Virus record (IMG/VR): IMGVR_UViG_3300030390_000955
Coordinates: 1 to 25,209 of that record
Origin: a virus
Reading direction: 5' to 3' (one strand)
Length of the DNA: 25,209 nucleotides
In this document: in pieces, positions 2,826 through 25,209 of the stretch
Position numbering within the stretch: the first letter of the stretch is position 1
Layout of the letters: each line of letters opens with the position of its first letter
Notes under the pieces: model-generated
What the model was told of the DNA's origin: nothing
Seen by the model: only the letters and a program-made list of their open reading frames with translations
The model's database searches: none
Program-made: the position numbers and the translations under genes

Positions 2826-2890
2826 GTAGATTGCCAGTATCAAGAAAACCCGTAAATACTAAACGCAAACCTTCAAAGAGATTCAGATGA
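2822..2890 (+). CDS. Tiny strongly basic ORF (22 aa) linking holin and tailspike
   Basis: The ATG overlaps the stop of the holin-like gene (ATGA at 2822-2825), and its own stop overlaps the ATG of the spike gene (ATGA at 2887-2890). The peptide begins MSRLPVSRKPVNTKRK and ends KRFR, with nine Lys/Arg in 22 residues and no acidic residue. It may be a real micropeptide, or may only carry ribosomes from the holin to the spike, which has a weak ribosome binding site. The first ten bases (ATGAGTAGAT) are identical to the start of the spike gene. Confidence 0.4.
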   Translation: MSRLPVSRKPVNTKRKPSKRFR

Positions 2891-4620
2891 GTAGATATGT
2901 AAAAGGGGCTTCCCCTAGAACAGTAGCCGCAATAGACACAGAACTGGAAGAGATTGAGGTTGCTATAGGTGATACTCTCTCTCGTAAAGGGGATACTCCT
3001 AATCAGATGGAAGCTGATTTGGATATGAATGATAATGCGCTTATCAATGCCCGTAGGGTCTTTACAGAAAACCTTACATATAAAGGACAGGATTTTGAGG
3101 CTTTCTTAGAGAGCATCACCCCTGTAGGTGTCCCTACATTTTCTAATATTATAACTCCTGCTATGTTTGATATTGTAGGAAACGGCTCTGATGAAACAGT
3201 TAAGATTCAACAGATGTTTGATGCAGCCAGTGGTAAAACAATCTACTTAGATGACAACGCCACATATGGCATTACCCTACTCACTATCCCTGATGATGTC
3301 TCCCTCGTTAGCTACAACTCCCAATTTAGAAAGCTAGTAGCAAATACAGACTACGGTATTTATGTAGGGAATAGGTTTAAAGCGGACCGCCTCCGTATAT
3401 CGAGTGGGGGAGGTTCTTCTGATAAAGGTATACGGATTACTGGTAATCTTGTAAAGATTGGATATTTGAGTGCATCTAGTGATGCTTTTGATTCTGAATG
3501 GGGAATCCATTTTGAGTCCACAGATGGGTCAGTCCTTGGTGGTATTGAGATTGATAAGATGACCACCACAAGATACCGTACAGGAAGTCTTATTTTTAAT
3601 GTAGCTGAGAGCCAGTTCAACAAAAGCACAACACAGGACTACATTGTAGGAATGTATTGCAGGGATGTTGCAGATGTTCAAGTCAACGGTCACATAGCAC
3701 GTTTTACGTCTCCTTCATCCCCCGGTACAGCCGGAAACAACGGGCTTCTTATTGAATCGACTCTTAGTAACTACTCCACTAACAACTGCGTATTTAATGA
3801 TATACACGTAGAGGATGCAGGAGAACATGGTATCCGCCTCGGGGGTAATGTTGCCTCTTCCAATTTGACATTCAATAATATAAAGGTATTGAATTCAGGC
3901 GCAGCAGGTGCAGGGGCGACAGGAGGGGCAGGATTTAAAGCTCTAATGAAAGATGAAACTCTCACTTTCCATAAAAACATTATTGTAAACAATCTGATTG
4001 TTGAGGACTGTTCTACTACAGGGAGTGGCCTAGGTAATTTTGCTGGAGTAATAATCGGCTTATGTGATGGGGTTTCTTTAAATAACATTATAGTTAGAAA
4101 CAAAAACAACGCCTTCTCCTGTTGGGACGGACTGAGCCTTTATGAATGTAAAAATGTTAATGTGACTAACTTCACTGCCCTAAATTGCCGTAGGCATGGG
4201 TTAAGATTAGAGGGGGGCTCAGGAGCCTTTGTCAGTGAGGAGATGACTGATATTAATATTACAAGCTCTACATTCCAGAATGAATCTACAGTTGCCAGTA
4301 GTGTTATTGAGTGTGATACGCTTAATACTTTATTCACTCGCGTTAATATTCAGGCAGATGTAAGATACGGCTCTCAAGCAGCCAACTATGACACAGGTAC
4401 TCTCCCTACTCCGTTTGTTGGATGCAACCTTGATATTACATATAGTGACCCTCTCAGTACAGCAGGGAATCCTCCTGTTACAAATAATAATATTATCAGG
4501 CTGAACTATCGTGGCCCTTGGTATGGGGCGTTTAATATGAATGGTTCAGATTCATCTCTCGTTCAAGAGGACTTGGGGAATGTTCGTATTAGAAAAGCTG
4601 GTGCATGGGTGACGCTCTAA
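2887..4620 (+). CDS. Tailspike 1, pectate-lyase-like beta-helix (577 aa)
   Basis: Receptor-binding tailspike, probably cleaving or binding a surface polysaccharide. Residues 1-60 form a short virion-attachment region (DTELEEIEVAIGDTLSRKGD, then LDMNDNALINARRV) also recognisable in the spike at 12392. From about residue 95 there is a typical beta-helix entry motif (FDIVGNGSDETVKIQQMF, then GKTIYLDDNATYGI). After it come many N/G/V-rich repeats (HGIRLGG, HGLRLEGG, NVNVTNF), as expected for a parallel beta-helix. The last about 100 residues may form a trimerising tail. Translation is probably coupled to the 22-aa ORF, as the only Shine-Dalgarno-like sequence (AAGAGAT) is weak. Catalytic residues cannot be assigned by eye. 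Confidence 0.8.
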   Translation: MSRYVKGASPRTVAAIDTELEEIEVAIGDTLSRKGDTPNQMEADLDMNDNALINARRVFTENLTYKGQDFEAFLESITPVGVPTFSNIITPAMFDIVGNGSDETVKIQQMFDAASGKTIYLDDNATYGITLLTIPDDVSLVSYNSQFRKLVANTDYGIYVGNRFKADRLRISSGGGSSDKGIRITGNLVKIGYLSASSDAFDSEWGIHFESTDGSVLGGIEIDKMTTTRYRTGSLIFNVAESQFNKSTTQDYIVGMYCRDVADVQVNGHIARFTSPSSPGTAGNNGLLIESTLSNYSTNNCVFNDIHVEDAGEHGIRLGGNVASSNLTFNNIKVLNSGAAGAGATGGAGFKALMKDETLTFHKNIIVNNLIVEDCSTTGSGLGNFAGVIIGLCDGVSLNNIIVRNKNNAFSCWDGLSLYECKNVNVTNFTALNCRRHGLRLEGGSGAFVSEEMTDINITSSTFQNESTVASSVIECDTLNTLFTRVNIQADVRYGSQAANYDTGTLPTPFVGCNLDITYSDPLSTAGNPPVTNNNIIRLNYRGPWYGAFNMNGSDSSLVQEDLGNVRIRKAGAWVTL

Positions 4621-5138
4621 TGGCAAAATACAAAGCCTCCAATGGCGTATATCTGAAGAGAGAGCTGTTCCTTGAGTGGAATAACCCCGATGCAGAGTTC
4701 AGTATAAGAGACACAGGACAAGAAGAGTATTACGAAGCCAACAGTGGCAAGAAGTACCGGAGCCTCCCCTATCTCTATCGGCAGTCCTTAGACGAGTATG
4801 AGTGTGCTATTCTGATGCTTGGCAGTTATGAGCATTGGAAAAAACTCTGTGCATGTGAATGGTTTAAGACAGGAAAGTTAAACGGAACACAATTCAGTGG
4901 CTTAAATGACTGGCGAGAAGAGAAGGCTCTTGCAGATGAAATGTCAGCTAAGAAAGTATTGATGCAAGCTATTGAAGAAGGTGACTTACAAGCAGCTAAG
5001 TTCATGTATGATAAAAGTACAAAGGCGAAGACTGCCACGGCTGGTAAAGGGCGACCTGAGAAAAAGGTTCCAAGTTTGAATAAGTCGAATGTAAGTGACA
5101 TCTATAACGAAATTAAAAAGAGAAGTTCTGGTAAGTAG
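4620..5138 (+). CDS. Small terminase subunit candidate (172 aa)
   Basis: Likely recognises phage DNA and regulates the packaging motor. Start set at the ATG at 4620, whose A is the last base of the spike stop (TAATG); an in-frame ATG 15 bases earlier is possible. The central helical part ends with AIEEGDLQAAKFMYDKS, the A(x)nGDxxAAKF pattern commonly seen at the end of the core of small terminases. The C-terminus is basic and ends in KKRSSGK, as expected of a DNA- or TerL-contacting tail. Synteny agrees: spanin-position gene and TerL follow, as in T7 18-18.5-19. No clear helix-turn-helix can be shown, so the call rests mostly on position and the C-terminal pattern. Confidence 0.6.
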   Translation: MAKYKASNGVYLKRELFLEWNNPDAEFSIRDTGQEEYYEANSGKKYRSLPYLYRQSLDEYECAILMLGSYEHWKKLCACEWFKTGKLNGTQFSGLNDWREEKALADEMSAKKVLMQAIEEGDLQAAKFMYDKSTKAKTATAGKGRPEKKVPSLNKSNVSDIYNEIKKRSSGK

Positions 5139-5192
5139 TATACCAGAGAAGGGTCTGCGCATGGCGCTACACTACTAAATAAGGAAAATTGC

Positions 5193-5543
5193 GTGGACGC
5201 AGAAATGGTAATAAAGTCTTTAATCGCTGTTGTACTCGGATATTTTTGGTATGACAAACGCAAACTAGATAGAGAGCTAGAAACTTATAAAAACCTCAAT
5301 GACCAAAAACATGAGGTAGTTCTCAGGGATTTAACAGAAGTGACTCGTAAACAAACAGAGCATGATAATAAGTTCGTAACAGACCAGAGAGTAAGGGATA
5401 TCGTCAAAGACGAGATAAAACCTTTAAAGGAGGATGTTGGTGGAATGAAGAGGGATATAGGCCATATCCTAGAGTCTCTCCAGAAACTAACTATAGAACT
5501 TAGTGTCAGTAATGCTCTACGTGAACAAGATAAAAATAAATGA
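5193..5543 (+). CDS. Membrane-anchored coiled-coil protein, i-spanin candidate (116 aa)
   Basis: The GTG start at 5193 has AAGGAAAA at good spacing. A single N-terminal hydrophobic segment (about residues 6-19, VIKSLIAVVLGYFW) is followed by a long charged, heptad-like region (RELETYKNLNDQKHEVVLRD onward). This is the topology of Rz-type inner-membrane spanins. It sits between the small-terminase candidate and TerL, exactly where T7 carries its Rz-like gene 18.5. I did not find an embedded lipoprotein (o-spanin) ORF. Alternative: a generic phage membrane protein with a coiled coil. Confidence 0.5.
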   Translation: MDAEMVIKSLIAVVLGYFWYDKRKLDRELETYKNLNDQKHEVVLRDLTEVTRKQTEHDNKFVTDQRVRDIVKDEIKPLKEDVGGMKRDIGHILESLQKLTIELSVSNALREQDKNK

Positions 5544-7150
5544 GTGAACAGATTAGAAAAGACTGTGAGAGCTCACTCTACACTTATGCTCAAGTAATGT
5601 TCCCTGAGAGGTATTTTGGGGATGTCCATGAAGAGATGTTTCACTTCTTCCAGAAGTCGTTAGAGACTGCTATGGAGAAAGGTGAGGGGGATAATGCAGC
5701 AGCTCTCGTACCACGGGACCACCAGAAGTCTTTCTGTATAGCTGTAGCATGTAGTTGGGCTATTACAAAACACCCTTGGTTTACTGTTACATATGTTTCT
5801 TCAAACCCTACACTAGCTGAAAGACAGCTTACGGTTATTAAGAATATATTTAAGAGTGACAATCATAGGGAGCTTTGGCCTGCTATGATGAACTACGAAA
5901 TAAATCCCCGTAGTAAAGAATATGAACACAAGCCTACAGGTACGTGGACTAAGACGGAGATAGGTGTAGACCACCCTGAGAGACCAAAGAGTGAGAAAGA
6001 CCCTACAGTAGCAGCCACTAGTGCTAAGTCTACTAATACAGGGGCTCACTATAAGATGTGTATCTTTGATGATTTGGTTACTAACGAGAACTACCGCAGT
6101 GCAGCAGAAAGAGAAGACATTAAAGAAGTTTATCAGTCTTATGCCTCTATTGCTACAACAGGTAGTATTAAGTGGATGGTAGGAACCCGCTACGGGGATA
6201 ACGACCTTTACTCTGAACTAAAAACCAAAGAGTATTACATATATGATGATGTGGGAAATATTGAAGAAACCCGTCCTCTTTGGAAATGGTTTGAGAGAAC
6301 AATAGAAGACAGCAAGAATAAAGATGGAAGCGGCACATACGTATGGCCTAGAGCACAGATGCCTGATGGAAGCTGGTATGGCTTTAACCAAACAGAATTA
6401 AGTAAGAAACGCTCGGAGGCTTTTAACTTAGAGCTGTTCTTTGCGCAGTACTACAACGACCCAAATGCGGCTGATGTAGACAAGATTACTAAAGAGAACT
6501 TTATGTATCTTCAGCCTAATATGCTTGAGAACAGACAAGGTAAATGGTTTTATGGTACTAAAGAACTCAAGATTGCTTGTGGTATGGATTTGGCTTTTAG
6601 TGAAGGCAGTGGAGTCAAAAAGACCAAGAGAGACTTCACCTCAATTGCTGTTATCGCATGGGACGGAGATGGTTACTTATACATACTTGACCTCCAGAGA
6701 TTTCAAACAGTTAAAGCGGAAGTCTACTATGAAAAACTTATAGAGCTTCATGCTTATTGGGACTTCAGAGAAGCCACAATAGAAACTAACTCAGGGGGTT
6801 CTGTCGTAGCCACATTTATACAGGATGAGTTACGTAGAGCAGGACACACCCTTGTGATTAAGCATCAACATAAGAATCAGAAAGATGGTTCAAAAGAAGA
6901 ACGTAACTCACAACTCTTTGAGCCTTTATACAGAACAAAAAGTGTCTATCATACGAAAGGCGGTTTTACAAGACTCTTGGAAGAAGAGCTTCGCCTAACA
7001 AGACCCCCTCACGACGATTTGAAAGATGCTGTATGGATAGCTGTTAGTAATAGTAAGCGTCCGTCTAAACCTAAATTTGCAACAAATAAAAAAGAAAGGA
7101 ATGTTGTTAATGCTAATAGCAGATTCCTCAACAGGAGAAAGAGAGCTTGA
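5540..7150 (+). CDS. terL: Terminase large subunit (536 aa)
   Basis: ATP-driven DNA packaging motor and nuclease. ATPase domain: a deviant Walker A, LVPRDHQKS (residues 56-64), an adenine-side segment before it, and Walker B CIFDDLV (about residues 174-180). The C-terminal RNase H-like nuclease shows D350 in GMDLAFSEG, E415 in ATIETNSGG and D492/D493 in PHDDLKDAV, the expected acidic triad. Length is close to T7 gp19 (586 aa). The ATG overlaps the stop of the preceding gene (ATGA) and its own stop overlaps the portal start, so all are translationally coupled. Only a weak ribosome binding site is visible. Confidence 0.95.
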   Translation: MSEQIRKDCESSLYTYAQVMFPERYFGDVHEEMFHFFQKSLETAMEKGEGDNAAALVPRDHQKSFCIAVACSWAITKHPWFTVTYVSSNPTLAERQLTVIKNIFKSDNHRELWPAMMNYEINPRSKEYEHKPTGTWTKTEIGVDHPERPKSEKDPTVAATSAKSTNTGAHYKMCIFDDLVTNENYRSAAEREDIKEVYQSYASIATTGSIKWMVGTRYGDNDLYSELKTKEYYIYDDVGNIEETRPLWKWFERTIEDSKNKDGSGTYVWPRAQMPDGSWYGFNQTELSKKRSEAFNLELFFAQYYNDPNAADVDKITKENFMYLQPNMLENRQGKWFYGTKELKIACGMDLAFSEGSGVKKTKRDFTSIAVIAWDGDGYLYILDLQRFQTVKAEVYYEKLIELHAYWDFREATIETNSGGSVVATFIQDELRRAGHTLVIKHQHKNQKDGSKEERNSQLFEPLYRTKSVYHTKGGFTRLLEEELRLTRPPHDDLKDAVWIAVSNSKRPSKPKFATNKKERNVVNANSRFLNRRKRA

Positions 7151-8901: not shown

Positions 8902-9175
8902 GTTTAAAGTTCCTAGTTTTATATCGGAATACTTTAATGGTTTAGATGCCGAGCAGAAAGCCGAAGCCGTAGCGAGATATAAGAGCTGGTATGCACACGA
9001 TTTCACAGAACTCTTTATCCAGCACCTTTCCCAACAGAGAGAGAAACTTGTACAGGAAGATGAGGAGAAAACAGATTTTATGTCTTGGTTTCAGTTCTCC
9101 TATAAGAAGGCTCATAACAGAGCTAAACGTTCTTTATTGAGAGAGCTCCAATCTAAACTGAATTGGAAGATATAA
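8885..9175 (+). CDS. Small charged protein of unknown function (96 aa)
   Basis: Overlaps the end of the portal gene by 17 bases. The ATG at 8885 has a weak GGAAG site; an in-frame TTG at 8891 sits 6 bases after AGGAG and may be the real start. The protein is soluble, helix-rich and ends in a basic stretch (YKKAHNRAKRSLLRELQSKL). It lies between portal and scaffold, so a role in head assembly is conceivable. I do not recognise a family. Confidence 0.7.
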   Translation: MILKSEFKVPSFISEYFNGLDAEQKAEAVARYKSWYAHDFTELFIQHLSQQREKLVQEDEEKTDFMSWFQFSYKKAHNRAKRSLLRELQSKLNWKI

Positions 9176-9363
9176 TGCCTACGTACACATACAACTGTAA
9201 GAGCTGCGAAAAAGATACGGAAGTGGTACATAAAATGATGGAAGACCCTATAATCAAATGTACAGTTTGTAATAAGGTAGCACAAAAAGTTATAAGGAGC
9301 TCCAACTTCCATTTAAAAGGGAGTGGGTGGTTCGGTAAATCTAAAGAAACTAAAGGATATTAA
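9175..9363 (+). CDS. FmdB-like zinc-ribbon protein (62 aa)
   Basis: The start is the ATG at 9175, sharing its A with the previous stop (TAATG); an upstream TTG in frame is rejected because FmdB-type proteins begin MPxYxYxC, exactly as here (MPTYTYNCKSC). Four cysteines form two CxxC knuckles (C8/C11 and C29/C32), followed by IRSSNFHLKGSGWFGKS, which matches the end of the FmdB zinc-ribbon family (IxxSxFxLKGxGW). Cellular members are called putative regulatory proteins with no firm function. The occurrence in the portal-scaffold interval suggests a structural or packaging role, which is inference. Confidence 0.85.
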   Translation: MPTYTYNCKSCEKDTEVVHKMMEDPIIKCTVCNKVAQKVIRSSNFHLKGSGWFGKSKETKGY

Positions 9364-9365
9364 TA

Positions 9366-10121: not shown

Positions 10122-10136
10122 TTGAGGAAATAAAAA

Positions 10137-11105: not shown

Positions 11106-11116
11106 GAGATAAATAA

Positions 11117-11545: not shown

Positions 11546-11559
11546 ATAGGGCTTCTTTA

Positions 11560-11583: not shown

Positions 11584-11606
11584 CATAAGAATCCTTGGAG
11601 ATAAAA

Positions 11607-12392
11607 ATGCAAAGAACACTACTACAGGTTGTTCAAAACTACTTAGATAGAACCAATGGGTTTTATGTTAATAGTATTAATGACACAGATGAAAGTTTAC
11701 AGATAGCTAAGATAGCGGAGGATGTGTACTACAAGATGGTACAGGAATTCCCCAATCTCCTCTTCACTATGAAAGAGCGTACACTTGATTCTGTTTCAGA
11801 CCCAGAAAGACCTAATTATATGCTCCTTCCAAAGAACGTCCAGAAAGTTCAGGAGAGTAAGATTTACTATAATATCTCCACAGAAGGAGGTAAAATTGAC
11901 TATAGAGAGATTACCTACCTGCCTCCTTTGGAATTTGTCTCTTCTACTAATAACACATCTAGTACCGAAACCCTGATTGTAGAGGGCTATGATGAAAACA
12001 AAATGGTGGTCCCCACTAAAAAGTTTCCGTCTTATTGTACATCTTTTGATAATCAGTTTGTTGTATTTGATTCTTATCACAGCGATTATGAAAGCAGTTT
12101 ACAAGCGAGTAAAACACGAATTGTTGTTTCTGAGGAGGAAGTATTTCTCCAAGATGACAACTTTATAATTCCTATTCCCGACCACCTCTCTGAAACTTAT
12201 TTAGATATGTTTCTTAATGAGGCTATGACTTTTATTTATCAGCAGTCTAACCCTCTTTTAGCTACAAGAGCTAGAGCAGCTAAGATTAAACTCCAGCAGG
12301 ATAATAGAACTCTTGGCAGCAGTAGGAAAGGGAAGCGTTATGGGAGAAAAGGCTTAGTGGGGAGTTACGTACCAAGGGGGCATGGGCACTAG
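11607..12392 (+). CDS. Tail adaptor / tubular tail protein A-like (261 aa)
   Basis: Likely links the portal to the nozzle. The start ATG at 11607 has TTGGAG just upstream; a TTG four codons earlier overlaps that site and is rejected. The N-terminus (MQRTLLQVVQNYLDRTNGFY, then IAKIAEDVYYKMVQEFPNLL) matches the helical start of T7 gp11-type adaptors, followed by a region with RPNYMLLPKNVQKVQ. The C-terminus is very basic (GSSRKGKRYGRKG). It is longer than T7 gp11 (196 aa). It lies between the capsid cassette and the tail genes, as in T7. Confidence 0.8.
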   Translation: MQRTLLQVVQNYLDRTNGFYVNSINDTDESLQIAKIAEDVYYKMVQEFPNLLFTMKERTLDSVSDPERPNYMLLPKNVQKVQESKIYYNISTEGGKIDYREITYLPPLEFVSSTNNTSSTETLIVEGYDENKMVVPTKKFPSYCTSFDNQFVVFDSYHSDYESSLQASKTRIVVSEEEVFLQDDNFIIPIPDHLSETYLDMFLNEAMTFIYQQSNPLLATRARAAKIKLQQDNRTLGSSRKGKRYGRKGLVGSYVPRGHGH

Positions 12393-13987
12393 TGGCTAAA
12401 TATACAAGAAATGATTTAACAGGGCTACTTTCTGCGGTGAATGTAGAGTTAGAGAAGATTGAAAACTCTTTAGCTGATAAACTTGACAGAGAACCTTCTG
12501 TTGCCCAAGCAAATTCAATGGGTAATCTCTTGGATATGAATTCTCAAAGAATTACTAATCTAGCAGCCCCTTCTAATCTTAATGATGCAGCACGTTTACG
12601 TGATGTCCAGAGCGCATCAACAGAAGCTATCCTTCCTCCACAAGAAGGGCAAGGAGGTAAATACCTTACAACAGATGGAAGTGGTACTTTTTGGGAGGAT
12701 GTAGATACAACAATCCAATACGTGGATACCTTTTCTAATCTTCAAGCATTAGAGCCAGAGGATACAAACGATTCTTTTATTTGTCTTGAAAGAGCTAATG
12801 CTCATTACGTGTTACAAGCATCTGGTTATGCAGCCTTATCTGGTGACGTTACTTTCGCCAATGGGCGTGTAGGGGCTTTGCAATTCACAAAAACAGCTAT
12901 AGCTGAAAAGTTCGGAGTAACATACTCAGGTGATGAAACGGTATTGCTTCAAAGTATTATTGACAGAGTTGCAAATACTGGTGGAGAAATTGTCTTATCT
13001 GCATTGGTTAATGTGTCTGGTATTACCATACCTCAAAGGGTCGTTTTGAAAGGAGTTGATTATGGATTTGCAAATCAATTTATTGATAACGAGGTATCGC
13101 CAAAGGGCAGCGGTTTGTTTTTAATCACAGGGAGTGATTCGGATGTTGTTACACTAAAGCTTGCTGTTACACTGTCTGACGGTGACTTAGTTGATGACTA
13201 TGATGGGACTATAAATAACGACTATCGGTATTTTGGAGGGCTAAAAGACTTAGTTGTATACGGTAATCGCTCAGACACTGCAAACCCGCCATCTGTAGTT
13301 GATAATAATACATCAGGAAACGGTGTTGCAGTCAAGGGTGTTAGATACCCTATATTGCATAATGTAGTTATTATGATGTGCGCCGAAGATGGATTTACTT
13401 GCGATAGTTTTGATTATGGATTAGGCTCAAACGCTTGTAATAACCATGATTTTGACAACGTTATATGTCTCAGCAATGCAGTAAACGGGGCATCTCTCTC
13501 AGGTGGCGACGCAATTATGAGGAAGATAATAGCAGGTTACAACGGCAACAATGGGATCACTTCCACATCTGGATCCGGGTCTATTACTGGTGAATGCTGG
13601 AACAATCAAAACCACGGTATACAGATATCAGGGGGCAAAAGGATAACATATGATTTTGCGTCATACGATAATAAGGTGAATGGCTGGAGGATAACGGACA
13701 CTAAAGGAGTTACGTGCCGTGGGTCAGCTAATGCCAACGGCAGGGACACTGGGCAGGGAGCAGGGCAGAGGGTAGGTGTGTTGACAGGGGATAGCAACGA
13801 GGGCTTGGTTTTAAATATAAATTCAGACGGAAGTGATGGAGTAACAACATATCAAGCATATGGCTTTAATATTAGTAATGCATCTAATCCCATCGTAGTT
13901 GCTGGATGCTTCGCAACAAATAACTTCTCAAGCGACTGGCTGATAACTACGCCCGCTAACATAATAAAGGATACTAACGCACCATGA
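12392..13987 (+). CDS. Tailspike 2, pectate-lyase-like beta-helix (531 aa)
   Basis: GTG start overlapping the preceding stop (TAGTG). Residues 1-75 are a virion-attachment module (VELEKIENSLADKLDRE, then LLDMNSQRITNLAAP and AARLRDVQ), related to that of spike 1 and common in phage fibres. From about residue 165 a beta-helix entry (KFGVTYSGDETVLLQSII, then GGEIVLSALVNVSGITIPQR) leads into repeats such as GNGVAVKGVRYPILHNVVIM and NNHDFDNVICLSN. The second half uses visibly different, more G-rich codons than the first, suggesting domain replacement. Its place between tail adaptor and nozzle is unusual. Likely a polysaccharide-binding or -cleaving receptor protein. Confidence 0.8.
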   Translation: MAKYTRNDLTGLLSAVNVELEKIENSLADKLDREPSVAQANSMGNLLDMNSQRITNLAAPSNLNDAARLRDVQSASTEAILPPQEGQGGKYLTTDGSGTFWEDVDTTIQYVDTFSNLQALEPEDTNDSFICLERANAHYVLQASGYAALSGDVTFANGRVGALQFTKTAIAEKFGVTYSGDETVLLQSIIDRVANTGGEIVLSALVNVSGITIPQRVVLKGVDYGFANQFIDNEVSPKGSGLFLITGSDSDVVTLKLAVTLSDGDLVDDYDGTINNDYRYFGGLKDLVVYGNRSDTANPPSVVDNNTSGNGVAVKGVRYPILHNVVIMMCAEDGFTCDSFDYGLGSNACNNHDFDNVICLSNAVNGASLSGGDAIMRKIIAGYNGNNGITSTSGSGSITGECWNNQNHGIQISGGKRITYDFASYDNKVNGWRITDTKGVTCRGSANANGRDTGQGAGQRVGVLTGDSNEGLVLNINSDGSDGVTTYQAYGFNISNASNPIVVAGCFATNNFSSDWLITTPANIIKDTNAP

Positions 13988-14043
13988 CGCCAATAGAAAC
14001 GCCTAAGTATGTAGAAGAAGCATTAAAAAAAAATGGGTTTTAA
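13984..14043 (+). CDS. Tiny ORF (19 aa) with an A9 run, after tailspike 2
   Basis: The ATG overlaps the spike stop (ATGA at 13984-13987). The frame reads MTPIETPKYVEEALKKNGF then stop. A run of nine A at 14025-14033 lies near its end. A +1 shift there gives a product ending HPDYDG, and a -1 shift one ending MMGR whose stop overlaps the next ATG (TAATG at 14067-14071). It could be a frameshifted micro-gene or a remnant. Function unknown. Confidence 0.4.
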   Translation: MTPIETPKYVEEALKKNGF

Positions 14044-14068
14044 TCATCCAGATTATGATGGGTAGATA

Positions 14069-14404
14069 ATGATAAAAGCAGAAAAATTTACAAGAACAAC
14101 ACAGACAGGAGTAGAGTACACACTTCTCTATAATGGGTTGTATTATTGGAGCCGCGAGGGAAGCACACCAGAGGCGTTAAAAGGACGTTACTCAGGCCAG
14201 TATGAGGCTCTCAGGGGTTTTGAGCTCTATGATGCTTCTATTGCACCTCAGATTTCACATATAGAGGAAGATGTAGAGCTTGAAGAGCTTACTAAGAAAG
14301 CTGACCTTCAAAAGTGGGCTGATATGCAAGGTGTAGAAGTACCTCCTGAATATAAACAGCCCAGTGCTATAAAGAAATTTCTATTAGGAGTATTTAATGC
14401 CTAG
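14069..14404 (+). CDS. Small phage protein with HeH/LEM-like C-terminus (111 aa)
   Basis: Lies between tailspike 2 and the nozzle. The N-terminal half is aromatic-rich (YTLLYNGLYYWSREG). The C-terminal part, LTKKADLQKWADMQGVEVPP with a following AIKKFLLGVF, resembles HeH/LEM-type helix-extended-loop-helix domains found in small phage structural proteins. Its ribosome binding site is weak (GGGTAG), and its end overlaps the nozzle gene by 8 bases. It may be a spike-associated or tail assembly protein; function not established. Confidence 0.7.
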   Translation: MIKAEKFTRTTQTGVEYTLLYNGLYYWSREGSTPEALKGRYSGQYEALRGFELYDASIAPQISHIEEDVELEELTKKADLQKWADMQGVEVPPEYKQPSAIKKFLLGVFNA

Positions 14405-15374: not shown

Positions 15375-15388
15375 GAGGATATGAACAA

Positions 15389-16612
15389 ATGGCTGTAGAT
15401 GCGCCAAGAACAACATACAAGAATCCAAATTGCTGTGCCTCTGCCTTTGGTCGTATTTTCTATGCCGTAGATAGTTTGATTTACTTCTCACAGGTGTTAG
15501 TTACGGCTAAGGATGCAGGAAGATGTTATCAGAATAATGACCCTACGAGTGAAGAGATACCTGATTTGGTGGACACAGATGGGGGTGTAATCACCCTTGA
15601 GGAATCTGTGAGAATAAAAGCACTAAAGCCTTTTAGCTCTGGTGTTTTAGTTTTTGCAACAAACGGGGTTTGGTATATCTACAATCCTGATGGGGGTTTT
15701 AAGGCAACAGCCTTCAATCTCTCCAAGGTGAGTGAGAGAGGAGTAGAGAGCCCTCGAAGTATCGTGGAGGCGGAAGGTGCAGTTTTCTACTTCTCCAATA
15801 ATGCTGTAATGCGAATCAGTGCTAGTGAGTTTGATGTCCTTCAGAGTGAGGATGTAAGCTCTCCTGCTATACGTGGCTACTTCCTAGCTAACTTCTCAGG
15901 GGAGAGTAGCCAAGGTGTCTATGATGAAGCTAGTAAACAAGTGGTATGGTGGAATCCCGATAGTGACTCTCAAGGTTTAATCTATGATTTAGAAATAGGA
16001 GCTTTCTATCCACAGAAGCAAAGTAGTACAGAGTGGAAGATGGGGAGACCTTTTACTATTGATAATGCTGTATTCTATCCTGCTTGGAAACAAGATACAG
16101 AGAACGTTCAAATTGAATACGGTGTAAGTCAGCGCTTTAATACAAGCTTTCAGGACTTCGGGGCAAACATTTCTGCTTATATGATTAGTGGATGGGAGAC
16201 TCTGGGTAAGTTTGCTAATAGTAAGTCCATTACGCAAGCTAAGATATTCTTTAAGAAAACTGAAACAGAAATCACAGGGGAGGTTGATGGTTCTTATACT
16301 TTTGACAGTCCGAGTGGTTGCCTCTTCCAATCTCGCTGGGACTATGACAGCTCAGATGCCTTTGCTAAATGGACAGGGATAAATGACTTCGGTGGCACGG
16401 GGACTATTATGCAAGTATATAATCCTTTACAGAGGGGCTTTATACCAAATAGTTATCCATACACCTTTAATACAGGTGAAAGTGTTATAAGCAAGAAGTT
16501 CAGTATTAGAGGAAGTGGTGATGCTGTACAGTTTGTATTTGAAGCTGAAGATAACAAAGATATGAAACTTCTAGGTTATAGTGTGAACTACACAATGAGA
16601 GGTAGAATGTGA
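15389..16612 (+). CDS. Tail nozzle protein, C-terminal part (407 aa)
   Basis: The ATG at 15389 has AGAGGAT at usable spacing and starts 14 bases after the stop of the N-terminal part. It begins MAVDAPRTTYKNPNCCASAF, then GRIFYAVDSLIYFSQVL, the segment that in one-chain nozzles follows the N-terminal beta region. It continues with FSSGVLVFATNGVWYIYN, KVSERGVESPRSI and AVFYFSNNAVMRI, all typical of gp12-like propeller repeats. The well-placed ribosome binding site and intact frame argue for a functional second gene rather than decay. Confidence 0.8.
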   Translation: MAVDAPRTTYKNPNCCASAFGRIFYAVDSLIYFSQVLVTAKDAGRCYQNNDPTSEEIPDLVDTDGGVITLEESVRIKALKPFSSGVLVFATNGVWYIYNPDGGFKATAFNLSKVSERGVESPRSIVEAEGAVFYFSNNAVMRISASEFDVLQSEDVSSPAIRGYFLANFSGESSQGVYDEASKQVVWWNPDSDSQGLIYDLEIGAFYPQKQSSTEWKMGRPFTIDNAVFYPAWKQDTENVQIEYGVSQRFNTSFQDFGANISAYMISGWETLGKFANSKSITQAKIFFKKTETEITGEVDGSYTFDSPSGCLFQSRWDYDSSDAFAKWTGINDFGGTGTIMQVYNPLQRGFIPNSYPYTFNTGESVISKKFSIRGSGDAVQFVFEAEDNKDMKLLGYSVNYTMRGRM

Positions 16613-16626
16613 TTGGAGAAATAAGT

Positions 16627-16926: not shown

Positions 16927-17327
16927 CAGCTTTAACAGTAGCCGTTGTCGGTACGTCAGGCGCTAGTATTGTAAGCGCAGAGAAGGGTAGAAAAGAACAA
17001 AGAAAAGCGAGACGAGTTCAAGAGCGTGTTCGTCAAGTACAAAGTGCTAGGGATAGGATGTCCCAAGTGAGGCAACAACGGATTGCCCAAGCCCAGATAG
17101 TTCAGGGAGCGGCTACACAAGGTACAGCACAGAGCAGTGCAGCCCAAGGAGGCTATAGTGCTGTAGGTTCTCTCTCTTCGGGTAATATGCAGTTCTTAAA
17201 TCAAATGGACAGTCTTAGTCAAACTATTCAGGGTCATATGAATAAAGCAAGCCAGTATTCGGGACAGGCTAGTATGTTAAATGCCGTGAGTAATCTTGCC
17301 CTTCAGGCGTCCGGTGGTGTGAAATAA
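16911..17327 (+). CDS. Internal virion protein, gp14-like (138 aa)
   Basis: AAGGAG precedes the ATG, and the gene overlaps its neighbour by 16 bases. A short hydrophobic N-terminus (VTALTVAVVGTSGASIV) is followed by a very basic helical region (RKEQRKARRVQERVRQVQ) and an Ala/Gln/Ser-rich second half (QGAATQGTAQSSAAQ). This is the pattern of T7 gp14-type ejection proteins, which insert into the outer membrane during DNA delivery; length is shorter than T7 gp14 (196 aa). Position between the gp13-like and the large ejection proteins agrees. Confidence 0.75.
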   Translation: MFDPVTALTVAVVGTSGASIVSAEKGRKEQRKARRVQERVRQVQSARDRMSQVRQQRIAQAQIVQGAATQGTAQSSAAQGGYSAVGSLSSGNMQFLNQMDSLSQTIQGHMNKASQYSGQASMLNAVSNLALQASGGVK

Positions 17328-20300
17328 TGAGAATAGTTGAAGACCAGAAAGAAGGCATACAGCAATACCCTGAAGACGTTGACATAAAACAGCGACTTGC
17401 TTCTTTAAAGGAGGAGGGTTTTACAGATGAGCAAATTAAGAAAGTGGCAGACAGACTTCCTCTTAATAAAGCAGTCTCTTCTCAAATTGAAGCTAATGTA
17501 CAAACCCCTCTGGAAGGGGGTCGCTTTGTAGATGAGGAGCCAGAGGCCGATGTTGTGTGGAATGTTGATGCACAGCGAGTTGATGTAGAGGAAGATTATA
17601 TAGCGCAGAAAGCGGCTCCAGATGAAGGTTGGGAGCTAGGCTTTGAAGGGACACCCGCATTTAAGCCACCTAAGACAAAAGAGAGTGTTAAGGAGCTTGC
17701 TGGTCTTGTAACGCAAGTTACGGGAGCTGACAGAAACTTTGTAGAAGAGCAGATAGGAACATTTGATGACACTCCTGTGCAAGAAGCTGTTACTCAGATA
17801 CAGAAAGAACTTCAAGATTACTTAATGGCAGGCATTTCGCAAGAGATAGAAGAGGCTGAGAGTCCTGAAAAAGTAGCCTCTATACTTGAAAGAGTGCAAG
17901 GAGAGAAAGCCGCTATAGTAAACCTCAGTACGTTGAGAGCTTATTCTGTGGGTAAAATGGAGCAAGTCCTTCCAGAAAGGCTGGGTGCTGTAACGCAGCA
18001 CACATTAAAAAGAATTTATCTGGCTCAAGAAATCTCTAAGAGGGAGAATGAGCTTATGGCTAATGCCTCTTTCTTCGAACTTGTAGGAGACTTTCTAGAA
18101 TATGCTGTTCCTGTAGTAGGGGTGGCTTCTGAAGAATACTCCAAGTATAAACAGGGGCTACCGGAAGTGTTAGGGAAGCTGGATAAGGCCACACCTGACC
18201 AACAGGAAGCCATCCTGAAAGCAGCTCTCGATGCTTGGGAAGAGCAGGAGTCCCTTCTAATACAAAACAACAACTCCTTAATGACTGCTGCACAGTTCTC
18301 CTCTTTAAAAGAAGCCCTCCTCCAAGGGGGCATGGAGATGATTGAGCAGGGAGATATATCACCTTCCCAATACAAACAATATACAGAGACTTTATTAAAT
18401 GTAGGTCTTGAAGCTCCTGCTATTTTAGCGGCTTTTGGTAAAGGTCTTTCTGGCTTGGTGAGGTTTACTTCAAGCAGGAGCCTCTCAGGGTCAAGACTCG
18501 CAGCAAAAGAATTCAGCCCTGAACTTATGGCTAAACTCTTCTCTCCTGAACAGCAGGGGGATAATATCCTTAAAGTGGAACCCACCACAAGAAAGAATAG
18601 TCATGTTATAGATACGGAGTACGTAGAGATTCCCCTCAATAAAATGAAGAAGGAACAAGAGGGGGGTTTAAAAGATATTTCCGAGAAAGAAGGCATGTCC
18701 GTAGAGGATGTGGCTGCAAGACAACTTCCTACACCTACACCCGAGACAGATGTGGGTTTTCCTAACACGATTGAGACACGAAAGGAATTGAATGATTTAG
18801 TGCTTCTGGATAATGATGCTACAAGCATTGGTATGTCTCTAGCAAGGGAGGTGGAGCGTAAAGCAGGGACATCTCTAACGCCTATTCAAAGTGCTACAGG
18901 CTTTAAGGGGTATTCTAAAGATGACAACTCTATTGGCTTATTTACCTTCCTACTAGGAGACGGGTCCAAAGGAGGGTTTAAAACAGCACAGGAAGTGGAG
19001 GACGCTGCACGTTTGGGCCTTGCGGGGCATGACTACCGTATAGTAGATAAGGATGGAAAATGGTTTGCAGAAGTGGATATAGAGCACTACCTCAACCCTG
19101 ACTTTGATGTAGGGGGCTTGTATACAGACCCCGAGAAGGCTTTTGGAACAGCTTCAAAATTACTAGGGATGAACCCTATAAGGGTTTTAGGAAGCAAAGT
19201 ATTATCCGGAATACATGCTCTAAAAGGTGTTCATCGTTCACGTGTTCAGAAAATAGAGGATAAGTTTAAAGCTTCAACAAAGAAACTCAGCTTCAAGCAG
19301 GGTTTAAGTCTTCAGAAAGCCCTTCAACAAGGTGACCTCTACGAGCAAGAGTGGACTTCTCTTCGTGCCTTTAAGGCTGATACAGGTATTGATGACAAGA
19401 AGGTATTCAAAACATATAGGGAAATGAGGGATATTTATGAGGAAATATACCATATAAGGAATAAGAACTATTATAACAAACTGAGAGCGAAGAATATGAA
19501 ATTTGTGGCTCTTGAGGATGATGGTAATCTTGGTAGTATTCTAAACCCTAAAAGCAAGGATGTTAAAACGAATGATGGTTTTGTATATGATGTGGAAACA
19601 AAGTCCCTTGTAAAAGCTGACCCTGATGATGGAATGTCTTATGTTCGTTTAACGAATGGTATTCTGGATGAAGTCACGGGCTATCGCTTTGTTGTCCGTA
19701 TGAAGCCTGACAGAATTAAGGCTCTCCCTATGAATCTCCTTAATAAAAGGAAGGGACATATTGACAGATTCTACAGGGATACGGGCTGGGTAGTAAGAAA
19801 GCCTAGAATGGGGCAGGTGGAAGGTAAGGAGCAACCCATAGGGGAGGGCTCTACTACACACATCGTTCGTACAGAAGCGGAGGCTAAGAGGATAGAAGAA
19901 GAGACTGGAGGTGTGGCATCAAGAGCAAGAGAGAACGATGACTTAGATGAAATATTCTCTCAGGATGATGCTATCCAATTCACATATGGCTCCTCCCATA
20001 CTAAGAAGAGGGGAGAGAAGCTGAAAGGCGCTGATGGGAATGAAGCCTCTATTCTGAATGTCTTTGAAACAATGGGTCGGACTATTGCTAGTACGCAGAG
20101 AGCCCTTGATTATAACATGATGCAAACCTTAAAGGCTCGTTTATACCATGAGTTTGGAGATATGTTTGTGGATGGGGCAGCTACCCCTATGAAGAACAAA
20201 GCTGTAGATATGCTAAAAGGGGAGTGGAAGAGCCGGATAGGGGCTACGGCCCGATTACAGAACTTTGAAAACTGGCATCAGTACATACGTGTTTTAGAAA

Positions 20301-22168
20301 ATAACGAAAAAGGAGCCTTGTTTAAACAGGCGGATGCTATGCTATCGGGTATTTTCGACCCTATATTAAGTGTAAAGGGTGTTTCTACGGATACAGGGAG
20401 GGCTGTAGATAGTTTGAGAAAACTTGTTGCTGACTTAGTTGTTGTATGGAACCCTCTGTACCAGATACCTCAGAACTTAGTCCCCGCCCTTTACCTTTCT
20501 TTCACAAAAGGTTCTGACGGTGTAAGGGCTTCTCTTGCAATGGGTGGCTTAAGGAGAGCCCTCAAGAAAGGAGACTACTCGATATTAGGTAAGACTTTAG
20601 GGGTAGAGGAAAGTCTCGCTAAGGAGATGATAGAGGAACTAAAATCTAACGGGCTCCTTGATGCTGTGGGGCGCTCTAATGACTTCCTCGACCTTGCTAG
20701 AGGAGATATTGATATAGGCTCTACTAATAGAGCAAAAGCTGCTTGGCAGAAGGTGAAAAAGAACTCAGGAGGTCTTGCATATGATGCCTCCCGTAAAGGC
20801 CAAGAAGGTGCTATTAGCTTAATGAATACTATGTCTTATATGACAGAGTTTAGAAAAGCTATAAGGGAGGGCAAGAAGTTTGATGCTAAGACTAAGGCGG
20901 AAGTAAGTTTCAGAGCTCAGAAGAATCTACAGTCTCAGAACTCTATGGATATGTTGTGGTATCAAAACCCTCAGAATGTTTTCGGTTTGGGCCTTCAGTT
21001 CTTTCAACACATGAATAAGCTCTTCATGGACATCGTAGCTGAGCCTCAGTATCGAGTAATTACGGCTGCATATGAGACGGTCCTAAAAAGGAAGTTCTCA
21101 GAAGGTAAATACTTTGGTAGGGAGGCAGGGCCATATGCTGAATCTTTTTCACAGGCGCTTCTTACGACAGTTTTAACCTATTCTGTATTCGGACTTTCTG
21201 GAGGGATGGGAGAGAACATAGGGGGTTTTGTAGAGGATAAGCTTAGAAAGAATTTTCCTGAAGTAGCAGAGAGTTTGGTAGGAGAGTCTCTTATAGATGG
21301 AGCCTTGAATGAAACTATTAATGGAACTATAAAGGCATTCGGGGGACAAGGGGCTGTGGACATTACTTCTACATTTGGTCCTGCTGGTTTCCTTGATATG
21401 ATGAATGATTTTATTATGGAGGGACTTCCTAGTTTTAACTTTATGGGTGTATCTGGAAATGTTGTAGGGGGTATCTCTGAGAGTATTTTCAGTGCAGGAG
21501 CGTTGTCAATAGCTTCTAATATAGATACTACAGATAAGGCAATGGCTATAGCAGGGGAGCTTCTTGAACCTATACAGGGCTGGAAGAATCTGGAGAAAGC
21601 CAGCCTTGCTTACATGTTTGGTCAACTGCCTTTCGCTAGTAGCCTTTCAGGGAATGCAAGGGTAGAGGCAACAGAAGCCGTATTTATGGCAGCTAACATT
21701 CAACCTCAACTAGTAGTGGACTACTTTGATAAGGCTGACTTTAAAAAACAGCAAAGCAGTATATTTGATATGCTAGACAGTGAGTATTGGGCAAGTCTTA
21801 TTGGAAAGACTATGCTTCAGGGGTTTGCTCGGAGTCTTCAGACTGCGCATCTTAAAGGGGAAACGGACTTTATAACAAGAGAGAGACTCCTTAAACAATG
21901 GGTAGAGGCTGGTAAAGGACTTGTCCTTGACAAACACGAGGGTACAATTGAAAGGATGTTTGCAGAAAGGGCTTTGAGTTCTGGCTCTGGTACATACGAA
22001 GAGTATATCAAGCCATACATACAGGCAGGAACAAAAACAACGCATGCGGAACATTTAAGAATTCTAGAGCAAAAAGCGAACAGTGCAGAGGCGAAAGCCC
22101 TCTTCCAGTCTTATCGTGAGTTTTATGAAAAACAGGATGCAATGGCTAAGGTGTTAGAGGATAAATAA
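17327..22168 (+). CDS. Very large internal virion / DNA ejection protein (1613 aa)
   Basis: By position and size the counterpart of the T7 core proteins gp15/gp16, which leave the particle before the DNA and build a channel across the envelope. The N-terminus is acidic and disordered (EDQKEGIQQYPEDVDIKQ, a DEEPEADVVW segment), then long helical regions. A hydrophobic patch lies at about residues 1030-1060 (LVADLVVVWNPLYQIPQNLV) and another at about 1275-1292 (ALLTTVLTYSVFGLSGGM), followed by glycine-rich stretches. I see no soluble lytic transglycosylase signature (catalytic Glu with GLMQ-type motif), in contrast to T7 gp16. It is larger than gp16 (1318 aa). It starts on TAATG and has only a weak ribosome binding site. 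Confidence 0.75.
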   Translation: MRIVEDQKEGIQQYPEDVDIKQRLASLKEEGFTDEQIKKVADRLPLNKAVSSQIEANVQTPLEGGRFVDEEPEADVVWNVDAQRVDVEEDYIAQKAAPDEGWELGFEGTPAFKPPKTKESVKELAGLVTQVTGADRNFVEEQIGTFDDTPVQEAVTQIQKELQDYLMAGISQEIEEAESPEKVASILERVQGEKAAIVNLSTLRAYSVGKMEQVLPERLGAVTQHTLKRIYLAQEISKRENELMANASFFELVGDFLEYAVPVVGVASEEYSKYKQGLPEVLGKLDKATPDQQEAILKAALDAWEEQESLLIQNNNSLMTAAQFSSLKEALLQGGMEMIEQGDISPSQYKQYTETLLNVGLEAPAILAAFGKGLSGLVRFTSSRSLSGSRLAAKEFSPELMAKLFSPEQQGDNILKVEPTTRKNSHVIDTEYVEIPLNKMKKEQEGGLKDISEKEGMSVEDVAARQLPTPTPETDVGFPNTIETRKELNDLVLLDNDATSIGMSLAREVERKAGTSLTPIQSATGFKGYSKDDNSIGLFTFLLGDGSKGGFKTAQEVEDAARLGLAGHDYRIVDKDGKWFAEVDIEHYLNPDFDVGGLYTDPEKAFGTASKLLGMNPIRVLGSKVLSGIHALKGVHRSRVQKIEDKFKASTKKLSFKQGLSLQKALQQGDLYEQEWTSLRAFKADTGIDDKKVFKTYREMRDIYEEIYHIRNKNYYNKLRAKNMKFVALEDDGNLGSILNPKSKDVKTNDGFVYDVETKSLVKADPDDGMSYVRLTNGILDEVTGYRFVVRMKPDRIKALPMNLLNKRKGHIDRFYRDTGWVVRKPRMGQVEGKEQPIGEGSTTHIVRTEAEAKRIEEETGGVASRARENDDLDEIFSQDDAIQFTYGSSHTKKRGEKLKGADGNEASILNVFETMGRTIASTQRALDYNMMQTLKARLYHEFGDMFVDGAATPMKNKAVDMLKGEWKSRIGATARLQNFENWHQYIRVLENNEKGALFKQADAMLSGIFDPILSVKGVSTDTGRAVDSLRKLVADLVVVWNPLYQIPQNLVPALYLSFTKGSDGVRASLAMGGLRRALKKGDYSILGKTLGVEESLAKEMIEELKSNGLLDAVGRSNDFLDLARGDIDIGSTNRAKAAWQKVKKNSGGLAYDASRKGQEGAISLMNTMSYMTEFRKAIREGKKFDAKTKAEVSFRAQKNLQSQNSMDMLWYQNPQNVFGLGLQFFQHMNKLFMDIVAEPQYRVITAAYETVLKRKFSEGKYFGREAGPYAESFSQALLTTVLTYSVFGLSGGMGENIGGFVEDKLRKNFPEVAESLVGESLIDGALNETINGTIKAFGGQGAVDITSTFGPAGFLDMMNDFIMEGLPSFNFMGVSGNVVGGISESIFSAGALSIASNIDTTDKAMAIAGELLEPIQGWKNLEKASLAYMFGQLPFASSLSGNARVEATEAVFMAANIQPQLVVDYFDKADFKKQQSSIFDMLDSEYWASLIGKTMLQGFARSLQTAHLKGETDFITRERLLKQWVEAGKGLVLDKHEGTIERMFAERALSSGSGTYEEYIKPYIQAGTKTTHAEHLRILEQKANSAEAKALFQSYREFYEKQDAMAKVLEDK

Positions 22169-23862
22169 TGGTAGATTTTACAAGAGATATTAAGCAAGCA
22201 CAGAAGACTGCGAGTTCTACTCCTCAGTTTGCTGCACCGAGCCAAACTCTCGGAACAGATATTGTCAATGCTGTGGGGACAGGGTTTCAGATATTCCAAC
22301 AAATACAGGCCAAAAAAGAGCTTGGAGATTTGAAAAGCCAAGCGGCTGCATATGAAGCACGTGTTGCGGAAGGAGCGAGGGGATTGGCTAATCTCCGAAT
22401 AGAGCTAAGTGCTAATCAACTATCTCCCACAGTAGTAGCTAAGAAAACTCAAGAATATATGTCGTCTTTTTCGAATATGGAATGGGGTGACATTACATCA
22501 CAAGCTAATAAAATTACGGGTTCCAATACGTTAAGTTTAATGGAGAAGGCAGCAAGGGCTCAGGAGGAGAGAGAGACTTCTTTTAAAAATCTCCAAATAG
22601 AAGCTGTGGAGGCGGCTGCGCAGTTCGGAGGAAGTATCAACCCTAATGAAATGTCAGAAAATGAACTACACCAAATTGTCCTTAAAGGGAAAAAGACTGA
22701 AGCCACACGTACTGTAAGACTTGCAGAGATGACGGAAGAGTTGAAGGGGATGCAAACAGAAGAGGCCCGTCAAAACCAACAATCTCGCATGTTTGAGTAT
22801 TATGCAACGGATAGTTTTGTTGCTGGCATTAGCAGTGAAATGGGGACATGGGTGCAGGGTCAAGGAGGTCTTACCCCAACGAGTGCTCCTGCAATGGTAG
22901 AGTATTTAACAGAGCAGAAAGTCTCTCTAAGGAATAAGTTTAACTCCCAGTACGTAGCACAAGCAAGGGAGGCAGGGTTTTATGTTTCACAGGAAGCTAT
23001 TAACAAAAGTATTGCCACGGCTGAAGGTACTATTGATAGCCTCATAGATATGCTTGGTAATGAGGACCAATTAAAAGCTATTAGAAATAATTCCGCAGTG
23101 CTCTTTGAAGGGAGCCTCCTTCGTATGATAGGGAGCCCCAACGAGTTGGAGAGAACAGCTTCTATGAATATTCTAGCTGCTAATTATTCTAAACAGCCTC
23201 TAGTGCTAAAAGACTTTGAGCAACAGTCTAAGTTTGTAGCGGGGATTCTTTCTGGGAGCCTGAACCCCTCACAAGAGGGTTTTGGGACAAGACTAAAAAC
23301 AACTTTGAATACTTTGTCCCCTTTGGACCCAAAGAAGGCTTCTGAGCGTTTTGATTATACGGATGAGATATTAGAATCAGTTCTTAATGGAACCACAAAG
23401 CAACAGAAGGCGGTAGCTGCACAAGGGGGTCTTGATACTGTTACGCAGATACTGGCTAAGGAGGGGGCTACTATAGTAAATCCCGCTAAAGCCCAAGAGC
23501 ATGCGGATAACTTATCGCGTCTAGGTTCCAAAGCTATATCAGCAGAAATTGCAAAGATAACAACGAAGTCCGCTACAGCTCTAGAGGGTTCAACTCAAAG
23601 GGGATATGCAAGCCTTGCAACACCAAACCCTCTGGATAACTATGGAGTCTCCGTAGGCAAGGATGGATTGAGTTTGAAGCTAGTTCTTACTACGAAGCAG
23701 CCTACTGCTCCGAAGAGAGATACGAATGTAGAAGCTTTGAATGAGATGATTAATAACCACTTAGAATCATTTAATCAATTAGGTATGGATGAGGATTTCA
23801 AGAGGGCTTTTATTAATGATATTCTTACAAGTCTTTCTATATCTCCTTCTAATATTAAATAA
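22168..23862 (+). CDS. Internal virion protein, second ejection protein (564 aa)
   Basis: AGAGGATAAATA precedes the ATG, which overlaps the stop of the 1613-aa gene (TAATG). The protein is almost entirely helical, Ala/Glu/Gln-rich, with repeated coiled-coil-like stretches (AAYEARVAEGARGLANLRIE; EARQNQQSRMFEYYAT) and no membrane segment. This fits a T7 gp15-like core protein forming the periplasmic tunnel. In T7 the gp15-like gene precedes the gp16-like one, so the order here appears reversed, if both assignments are right. A gap of 229 bases follows its stop, closing the main late operon. Confidence 0.7.
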   Translation: MVDFTRDIKQAQKTASSTPQFAAPSQTLGTDIVNAVGTGFQIFQQIQAKKELGDLKSQAAAYEARVAEGARGLANLRIELSANQLSPTVVAKKTQEYMSSFSNMEWGDITSQANKITGSNTLSLMEKAARAQEERETSFKNLQIEAVEAAAQFGGSINPNEMSENELHQIVLKGKKTEATRTVRLAEMTEELKGMQTEEARQNQQSRMFEYYATDSFVAGISSEMGTWVQGQGGLTPTSAPAMVEYLTEQKVSLRNKFNSQYVAQAREAGFYVSQEAINKSIATAEGTIDSLIDMLGNEDQLKAIRNNSAVLFEGSLLRMIGSPNELERTASMNILAANYSKQPLVLKDFEQQSKFVAGILSGSLNPSQEGFGTRLKTTLNTLSPLDPKKASERFDYTDEILESVLNGTTKQQKAVAAQGGLDTVTQILAKEGATIVNPAKAQEHADNLSRLGSKAISAEIAKITTKSATALEGSTQRGYASLATPNPLDNYGVSVGKDGLSLKLVLTTKQPTAPKRDTNVEALNEMINNHLESFNQLGMDEDFKRAFINDILTSLSISPSNIK

Positions 23863-24091: not shown

Positions 24092-24385
24092 ATGGCTAAG
24101 AAAGGTGAAACCAAGTCGAATGCAAAGCCTGCCAGTAAGCAGAAAAGGGCTTACAACAGTACAGAGAAAGCTAAGAAAGAAAGAGCTGCAAGAAATAAGG
24201 CACGCAGGCAAGCCCTTGCTAAAGGGATTGTTAAGAAAGGGGACGATAAGGATATCGACCATAAAGAGCCTCTTCGTAAGGGAGGCAGTACAGAGAAGAG
24301 TAATACACGTGTAAGAAGTGCTAAAGCTAATAGAGCTGACAATGGAAGTTATAAGGGCATGAAGCGGAAAGGTAAACGAAAATGA
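24092..24385 (+). CDS. Small basic HNH-like phage protein (97 aa)
   Basis: Start ATG with GGAGAAG upstream. About 40% of residues are Lys or Arg. The centre, KKGDDKDIDHKEPLRKGG followed by SNTRV and KANRADNGS, matches the short HNH-like family frequent in podophages (DxDHKxPLxxGG...N.RV...NR). D-H of the first motif and N of the second are present, but a final catalytic His and zinc-binding CxxC pairs are not seen, so nuclease activity is uncertain. Such proteins are often annotated as HNH endonuclease or virion-associated. Its neighbour on the right is a tail fibre. Confidence 0.65.
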   Translation: MAKKGETKSNAKPASKQKRAYNSTEKAKKERAARNKARRQALAKGIVKKGDDKDIDHKEPLRKGGSTEKSNTRVRSAKANRADNGSYKGMKRKGKRK

Positions 24386-24421
24386 TATTTCATATAAGTT
24401 TTTATTCTAAGGGGAGGGGTC

Positions 24422-25209
24422 ATGCCACAATATAACGATATTAGGACGGAGTGGTTTTTAGAGGGGTTAGATTTAGCAGAAAAGAATGCCCTTGGCGTTT
24501 CAAGTAGCACAGACACTAATTTTGCCCCTCAATTACCAGAGGCAGATTCATCGGCAACGGTAGTAACTGATATTACAAACCCGACACTAACAAAAGAATG
24601 GGATAAGTTTTCAGAAAATATAGCGAGAATTGGCGGAAATATTGTTCAAGCTGGCGAAAATTTACCCGACAGCAACTACATAACATCGGACACGATCAGC
24701 CCCGCGCATGTTGTTTCGTTTTTGTTTTATGGTGATGTATTTGAAATTAGATACAAAGTTTTAGTTGGGTCAATGCGGGTTCTAGTCGATGGAAAACCAG
24801 CCGCAAAGATAAACCTGCCGTCTAGTACAGGCCAAGAGAGATATATGCGCGTATCCTTTCCTGACTCAAGACTTAGACGAATAGATATTGTCTCTTCTTT
24901 GGTTTACACCGGAAACCTGAGAACCGACCCGACAGATACAGTCCAGCCAACTTTAAATCCAAGTCGCGTTATTATTGCTGGTGACTCTTTCACAGAAGGT
25001 ACAGCGGGAGCGAGTGAAAAAGGAAAAGGATACGTTGATTTATTACGCATGCTATCTGGAAACTTCAACATAGTTCAGTCAGGTTCAGGCGGCACTGGGT
25101 GGCTCAGGCCTAACGGCGAGCGTGTAGGGCTTGTTGATAGGGCGCAAGCTGACATTGTTGATGTTGGCGCTGACGTTGTAATTATCGCAATGGGCATCAA
25201 TGATAACGG
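24422..25209 (+). CDS. SGNH-hydrolase tail fibre / esterase, N-terminal part (open at right edge)
   Basis: Open frame of 262 codons running off the window; GGGGAGGGGT precedes the ATG. Residues 1-60 (MPQYNDIRTEWFLEGLDLAE onward) look like a phage-attachment region. A beta-rich insert (FEIRYKVLVGSMRVLVDGKP) follows. Then the SGNH core: block I VIIAGDSFTEG (residues 183-193; nucleophile S189), GSGGTGW as candidate block II, and IIAMGINDN (N260) as block III; the final D-H block lies beyond the edge. Such domains on fibres de-acetylate or de-acylate surface polysaccharides. From about 24560 the CpG-rich codon use differs from the other late genes, suggesting recent acquisition. Confidence 0.8.
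   Translation, partial: MPQYNDIRTEWFLEGLDLAEKNALGVSSSTDTNFAPQLPEADSSATVVTDITNPTLTKEWDKFSENIARIGGNIVQAGENLPDSNYITSDTISPAHVVSFLFYGDVFEIRYKVLVGSMRVLVDGKPAAKINLPSSTGQERYMRVSFPDSRLRRIDIVSSLVYTGNLRTDPTDTVQPTLNPSRVIIAGDSFTEGTAGASEKGKGYVDLLRMLSGNFNIVQSGSGGTGWLRPNGERVGLVDRAQADIVDVGADVVIIAMGINDN

Follow-up and report, generated by a model that had tools for sequence, protein, structure and literature searches.

The window analysed here, a linear record of 25,209 b that makes up the entire IMG/VR entry and is probably a fragment lacking most of the early region, raises the question of how many receptor-binding proteins its phage carries and how each of these is mounted on the tail. The initial annotation had proposed three separate receptor-binding modules, two beta-helix spikes and an SGNH-type fibre, on one podovirus, in contrast to the single fibre gene of classical T7. 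All three ORFs lie where it had placed them (Table 1); however, a beta-helix is only probable for the two spikes, the term fibre is unsupported for the third product and a T7-like assignment is wrong at family level. On the evidence of its genes, the phage is a marine-type podovirus of the Zobellviridae and is not T7-like. Its terminase large subunit (TerL) is nearest to those of Zobellviridae (45-50% identity; Pseudoalteromonas RIO-1 and HP1, Vibrio 1.208.B and 172P1) rather than Autographiviridae, and the nearest relatives of its portal, capsid and tail tube proteins belong to the same family. The late genes are collinear with those of RIO-1 and HP1 and follow the order of RIO-1, namely holin-position ORF, spike, small-terminase-position ORF, TerL, portal, scaffold and capsid, followed by tail tube A, the tail appendage halves, the large internal virion protein and a late protein. 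A megablast search against phage records gave zero matches. Classical T7 was the wrong yardstick for the window, since several receptor-binding genes are the rule in the closest family.

Table 1. Features of the window, with positions, strand and supporting matches.
Feature	Position	Strand	Remarks
Holin-position ORF, upstream of locus A	2469..2825	+	Placed like RIO-1/HP1 holins; phrog_2524 E 8e-25 (function unknown); holin by position only
Spike 1 (locus A), 577 aa	2887..4620	+	Counterpart by synteny: RIO-1_55 virion structural protein
Anchor module, locus-A type, residues 1-70	2887..3096	+	Leave-out HMM E 1.5e-21; nearest L022 among locus-A anchors
Small-terminase-position ORF, overlapping spike 1 end	4605..5138	+	Matches RIO-1_54 and relatives; phrog_8035
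Terminase large subunit	5540..7150	+	phrog_38 E 9e-74; Zobellviridae 45-50%
Tail tubular protein A	11595..12392	+	phrog_7592 E 4e-58; RIO-1, HSd1 homologues
Spike 2 (locus B), 531 aa	12392..13987	+	Anchor and low-confidence beta-strand model
Anchor module, locus-B type, residues 1-72	12392..12607	+	Leave-out HMM E 2.7e-15; locus-B clade, support 99/99
Head domain of spike 2, residues ~111-175	12722..12916	+	Common to Pseudoalteromonas H6/1 tailspike, Alteromonas PB15 and unanchored L050 ORF
Spike 2 C-terminal end, residues 417-531	13640..13984	+	66% identity to L050 ORF at locus A
Small ORF, displaced by spike 2	14069..14404	+	43-55% homologues adjoin tail tube A 3' in G003, G013, G014, G022, G026, G028
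Internal-virion-type protein, late operon end	22168..23862	+	Syntenic with RIO-1_36; homologues in G024, G026
97-aa conserved ORF marking locus C	24092..24385	+	76-82% in close relatives; phrog_4590 E 4e-20; PF01844 (HNH) E 0.028, below cut-off
Putative SGNH/GDSL hydrolase, N-terminal 262 aa, locus C	24422..25209	+	PF13472, PHROG, motifs; cut by contig end; no anchor

Several features outside the receptor-binding genes were also recorded. An early ORF on the minus strand (199-780) matches DUF7178 (PF23802, E 2.4e-36), a domain of unknown function, and a zinc-ribbon protein (9163-9363; PF09723, E 2.5e-11) is encoded between portal and scaffold, at a site that it shares with some close relatives. 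Two ORFs (14397-15374 and 15389-16612) make up the split tail appendage protein of tube B type; they are adjacent here and in close relatives and have one to three genes between them in HP1 and RIO-1. At 17327-23862, the internal virion protein (1,613 aa) and the ORF after it share just ~30-40% identity with relatives whose neighbouring genes are 55-82% identical, which suggests mosaic exchange of ejection proteins. A viral-contig scan with the late protein (22168-23862) found no relatives.

What unites the two spikes is their N-terminus, as both begin with an anchor module of ~70 aa of the RIO-1 type. An anchor HMM built without the window sequences matched just these two products among the 125 window ORFs of at least 40 aa (E-values in Table 1). 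The same module forms the N-terminus of RIO-1_55, annotated as a "virion structural protein", and of HP1 gp29, HP1 gp30 and HSd1 ORF4, and is also present on short ORFs of 172P1 and 1.208.B, while beyond the anchor each spike is poorly conserved. At least two anchors were found in 29 of 97 anchor-bearing records, an undercount, as most of these are fragments, and in a set selected for anchor or tail-tube similarity rather than at random. The spike 1 ORF starts with ATG and that of spike 2 with GTG, the latter overlapping the stop of tail tube A. A possible ORF of 19 codons (13984-14043) overlaps the stop codon of spike 2 (ATGA) and terminates ahead of the displaced small ORF at 14069.

Mapping of the relatives revealed three loci for receptor-binding genes, with locus A lying before the terminase, locus B after tail tube A and locus C after the internal virion proteins, and all three are occupied in the window. 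Most relatives whose locus A is in view encode one or two anchored spikes there. Among close relatives, locus B is occupied in the window, G001 and L005-L010, while G003, G013 and G022 have no spike there (TerL ~80%). The locus-B spike directly adjoins tube A in the window and in L005/L006, and lies behind the small ORF in G001 and L007-L010, indicating that the insertion point differs. The possibility that spike 2 is an extended form of RIO-1_45, a 69-aa ORF behind tail tube A, was considered and rejected; RIO-1_45 has no anchor and its counterpart in the window is the small ORF.

The anchors of the two loci are not alike. In a tree of 30 anchors, limited by its 73 columns, the seven locus-B sequences form one clade (support 99/99) apart from the locus-A anchors. 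Mean anchor identity is ~57% among close locus-A sequences and 63% within B, against ~37% between A and B. The window and G001 each hold one anchor of either type, which ties the split to position rather than to genome. As judged from these comparisons, the phage carries two position-specific anchor subtypes. The anchors are nevertheless homologous, and tandem spikes at locus A (G013, G022, HP1) both bear A-type anchors; these points speak for a competition of spikes 1 and 2 for the same attachment sites, giving rise to mixed or alternative particles. We consider such competition somewhat unlikely; a distinct, position-bound clade of locus-B anchors would be needless if the sites were equivalent.

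The arrangement that we favour, and hold to be moderately probable, is that of a podovirus of the Zobellviridae whose two tailspikes are each mounted directly, through A- and B-type anchors, with receptor ends able to move between loci and an SGNH accessory protein. In both spikes the anchor would be joined to a receptor-binding domain that is probably a beta-helix; the anchor of spike 1 is of the locus-A type common throughout the family, and that of spike 2 of the locus-B subtype tied to the position behind tail tube A. Through these anchors the spikes would be fixed to the tail hub, most likely at the tube A/tube B ring, and their sites there may be separate or may overlap in part. An interaction with tube A is predicted by analogy with other podoviruses, tube A being the tail protein where fibres attach (PMC10386132). 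One particle might thereby have two glycan specificities, or one spike might cut while the other holds.

The initial annotation had instead suggested branched or layered spikes. A system of this kind is known from phage G7C, where an anchored spike is paired with a deacetylating one (PMC6872550, PMC10743462), and its counterpart here would have the SGNH protein and one spike docked on the other spike as the sole tail-mounted one; the short anchor-bearing ORFs of 172P1 and 1.208.B do resemble adapters. However, spikes 1 and 2 each have their own anchor from residue 1, in both of them the next predicted domain follows the anchor after just ~40 residues, and a profile search found no Pfam match to a T4gp10-like or other docking domain in either spike at E-values up to 1. 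With both spikes self-anchored, no docking domain found and the SGNH ORF bearing neither an anchor nor a recognised docking peptide, a branched complex is less likely, and we regard it as quite improbable. G7C gp66/gp63.1 do resemble the window in being two spikes of which one is a glycan esterase, but the G7C system is N4-like and branched, with a T4gp10-like platform and a single anchored spike, whereas two anchored spikes and no platform were seen here.

That receptor ends can move between loci, as this directly mounted arrangement proposes, is suggested by L050 (TerL 82%). The visible 115 residues of its locus-A ORF correspond to the end of spike 2 (Table 1), so that close relatives carry matching receptor ends at different loci. 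Movement of receptor ends between anchor types would be in keeping with this, although L050 starts inside the gene and the anchor type is out of view. The next gene (L050:356-1951) encodes an unanchored probable spike of 532 aa that opens with the spike 2 head domain. An unanchored ORF of 559 aa also follows the spike 1 counterpart in G001, and the unanchored ORFs of L050 and G001 are candidates for attachment via the head domain.

In silico analysis of the spike folds agrees in part with the beta-helices proposed initially. The AlphaFold models have all-beta middles and low confidence scores, the mean pLDDT being 48 for spike 1 and 39 for spike 2. Beta-helix tailspikes and enzymes, alginate epimerases among them, account for most of the PDB matches listed by Foldseek (AlgG, AlgE6, CBA120 TSP2, TSP3, P22), none of which reaches an E-value of 0.001. 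The top matches for spike 1 are AlgG and CBA120 TSP3/TSP2 (E 0.07 or worse), and the best for spike 2, which has regular beta-strands at residues 312-446, is the beta-helix of AlgE6 (E 0.035). Neither spike has a convincing Pfam or PHROG domain, and PDB sequence searches with both spikes and the SGNH ORF gave nothing useful. A right-handed beta-helix is thus probable in both spikes as modelled. A viral-contig scan with the receptor end of spike 1 found no relatives. Spike 1 is 96% identical to A0A516LET8 (a UniProt viral protein of 577 aa, found via BFVD) and is therefore already in public databases.

The third gene occupies locus C, where the late protein and the conserved 97-aa ORF precede it. 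The latter encodes a basic protein whose conservation is about equal to or above that of the capsid protein, and this weakly HNH-like ORF at the border of a variable locus may mark or promote exchange there. The SGNH ORF possesses SGNH blocks I (GDSF at 24980) and III (GIND at 25193), with the catalytic Asp-x-x-His of block V falling beyond the contig end, and has moderate matches to PF13472 (E 2.9e-5, below the gathering cut-off) and to the PHROG families "head decoration" (E 4e-7) and "hydrolase" (E 7e-6). An NCBIfam search gave one marginal acetylxylan-esterase match (E 0.0015), far below cut-off. Among phage proteins, the one closest to the SGNH ORF product is an SGNH-domain "tail protein" of Bacillus phage Mater (33.5% over 188 residues), and scans of viral contigs and genome contigs found no relatives. 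The ORF has a good ribosome-binding site (AGGGGAGGGG), which together with the gene place argues for a late gene. No anchor HMM match was obtained even with filters off, so while the SGNH motifs of the proposed fibre stand, the designation of fibre finds no support in an anchor, and the idea of several receptor-binding proteins on one podovirus is supported for the two anchored spikes.

It reads best as an esterase-like accessory protein of putative virion status, which would strip acyl groups from the surface glycan as a third tail accessory or, alternatively, as a non-virion enzyme. That it acts outside the virion, for example in host surface modification, or is a recent insertion, has in our estimation slightly less than an even chance. 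The missing anchor, the position at the late operon end, the presence of PF13472 in the window alone among 40 related records and the lack of any long late-strand ORF at locus C of G001 all favour this, while the "tail protein" annotation of its best phage match and the tail-type or lectin-type ORFs at locus C of several relatives speak for a virion role. Locus C encodes a LamG-like ORF in G024 (PF13385, E 4e-6, just under cut-off), tail-fibre-like ORFs in G003, and anchored ORFs in Vibrio 172P1, 1.208.B and T2S1. The combined action on polysaccharide backbone and acyl groups that had been predicted is possible. A three-slot, non-branched apparatus, with two anchor subtypes at two tail-hub places, swappable receptor ends and an enzyme slot at locus C, we think unlikely.

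Several receptor-binding proteins on a podovirus are known (PMC6872550), and such an arrangement is unsurprising in a short-tailed phage, and especially so in the Zobellviridae. RIO-1 and PSA-HP1 (Zobellviridae, Melvirus) are like the window in late gene order and in the anchor on their locus-A spikes; unlike the window, they have no locus-B spike and no SGNH match, and the two anchored spikes of PSA-HP1 are in tandem at locus A. Closest in layout is the IMG/VR record G001 (L002, 36,204 b; TerL 82% identical), with anchored ORFs at loci A and B as in the window; its locus-B gene, however, lies after the small ORF and has a short product, an extra unanchored probable spike is present at locus A and locus C is without SGNH. 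Cobaviruses, roseophages of the RIO-1 subgroup, have two tail-fibre genes near the terminase, departing from the simplicity of T7; in this they resemble the window, whereas the accessible text of that account describes no anchor subtypes for them (PMC6775973). In Klebsiella KP32/KP34-type podoviruses and K1-5, a T7-type tail likewise bears two receptor-binding proteins, but these use an anchor plus a branch, or an adapter, and the anchor is of the T7 gp17 kind, as opposed to the RIO-1 kind of the window.

The paired attachment types are thus the modestly new part, multi-spike short-tailed phages being already known; no description of a position-bound second anchor subtype was found in the literature covered, to which the two papers on RIO-1 itself do not belong. 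In the Zobellviridae, the anchor provides a simple sequence marker for spike genes that are often annotated as "hypothetical protein". The two-spike podoviruses in the literature covered use one anchor with a branch or adapter. If true, a position-bound second anchor subtype would be another way of mounting two spikes, and it would make predictable the receptor ends that can combine on one tail.
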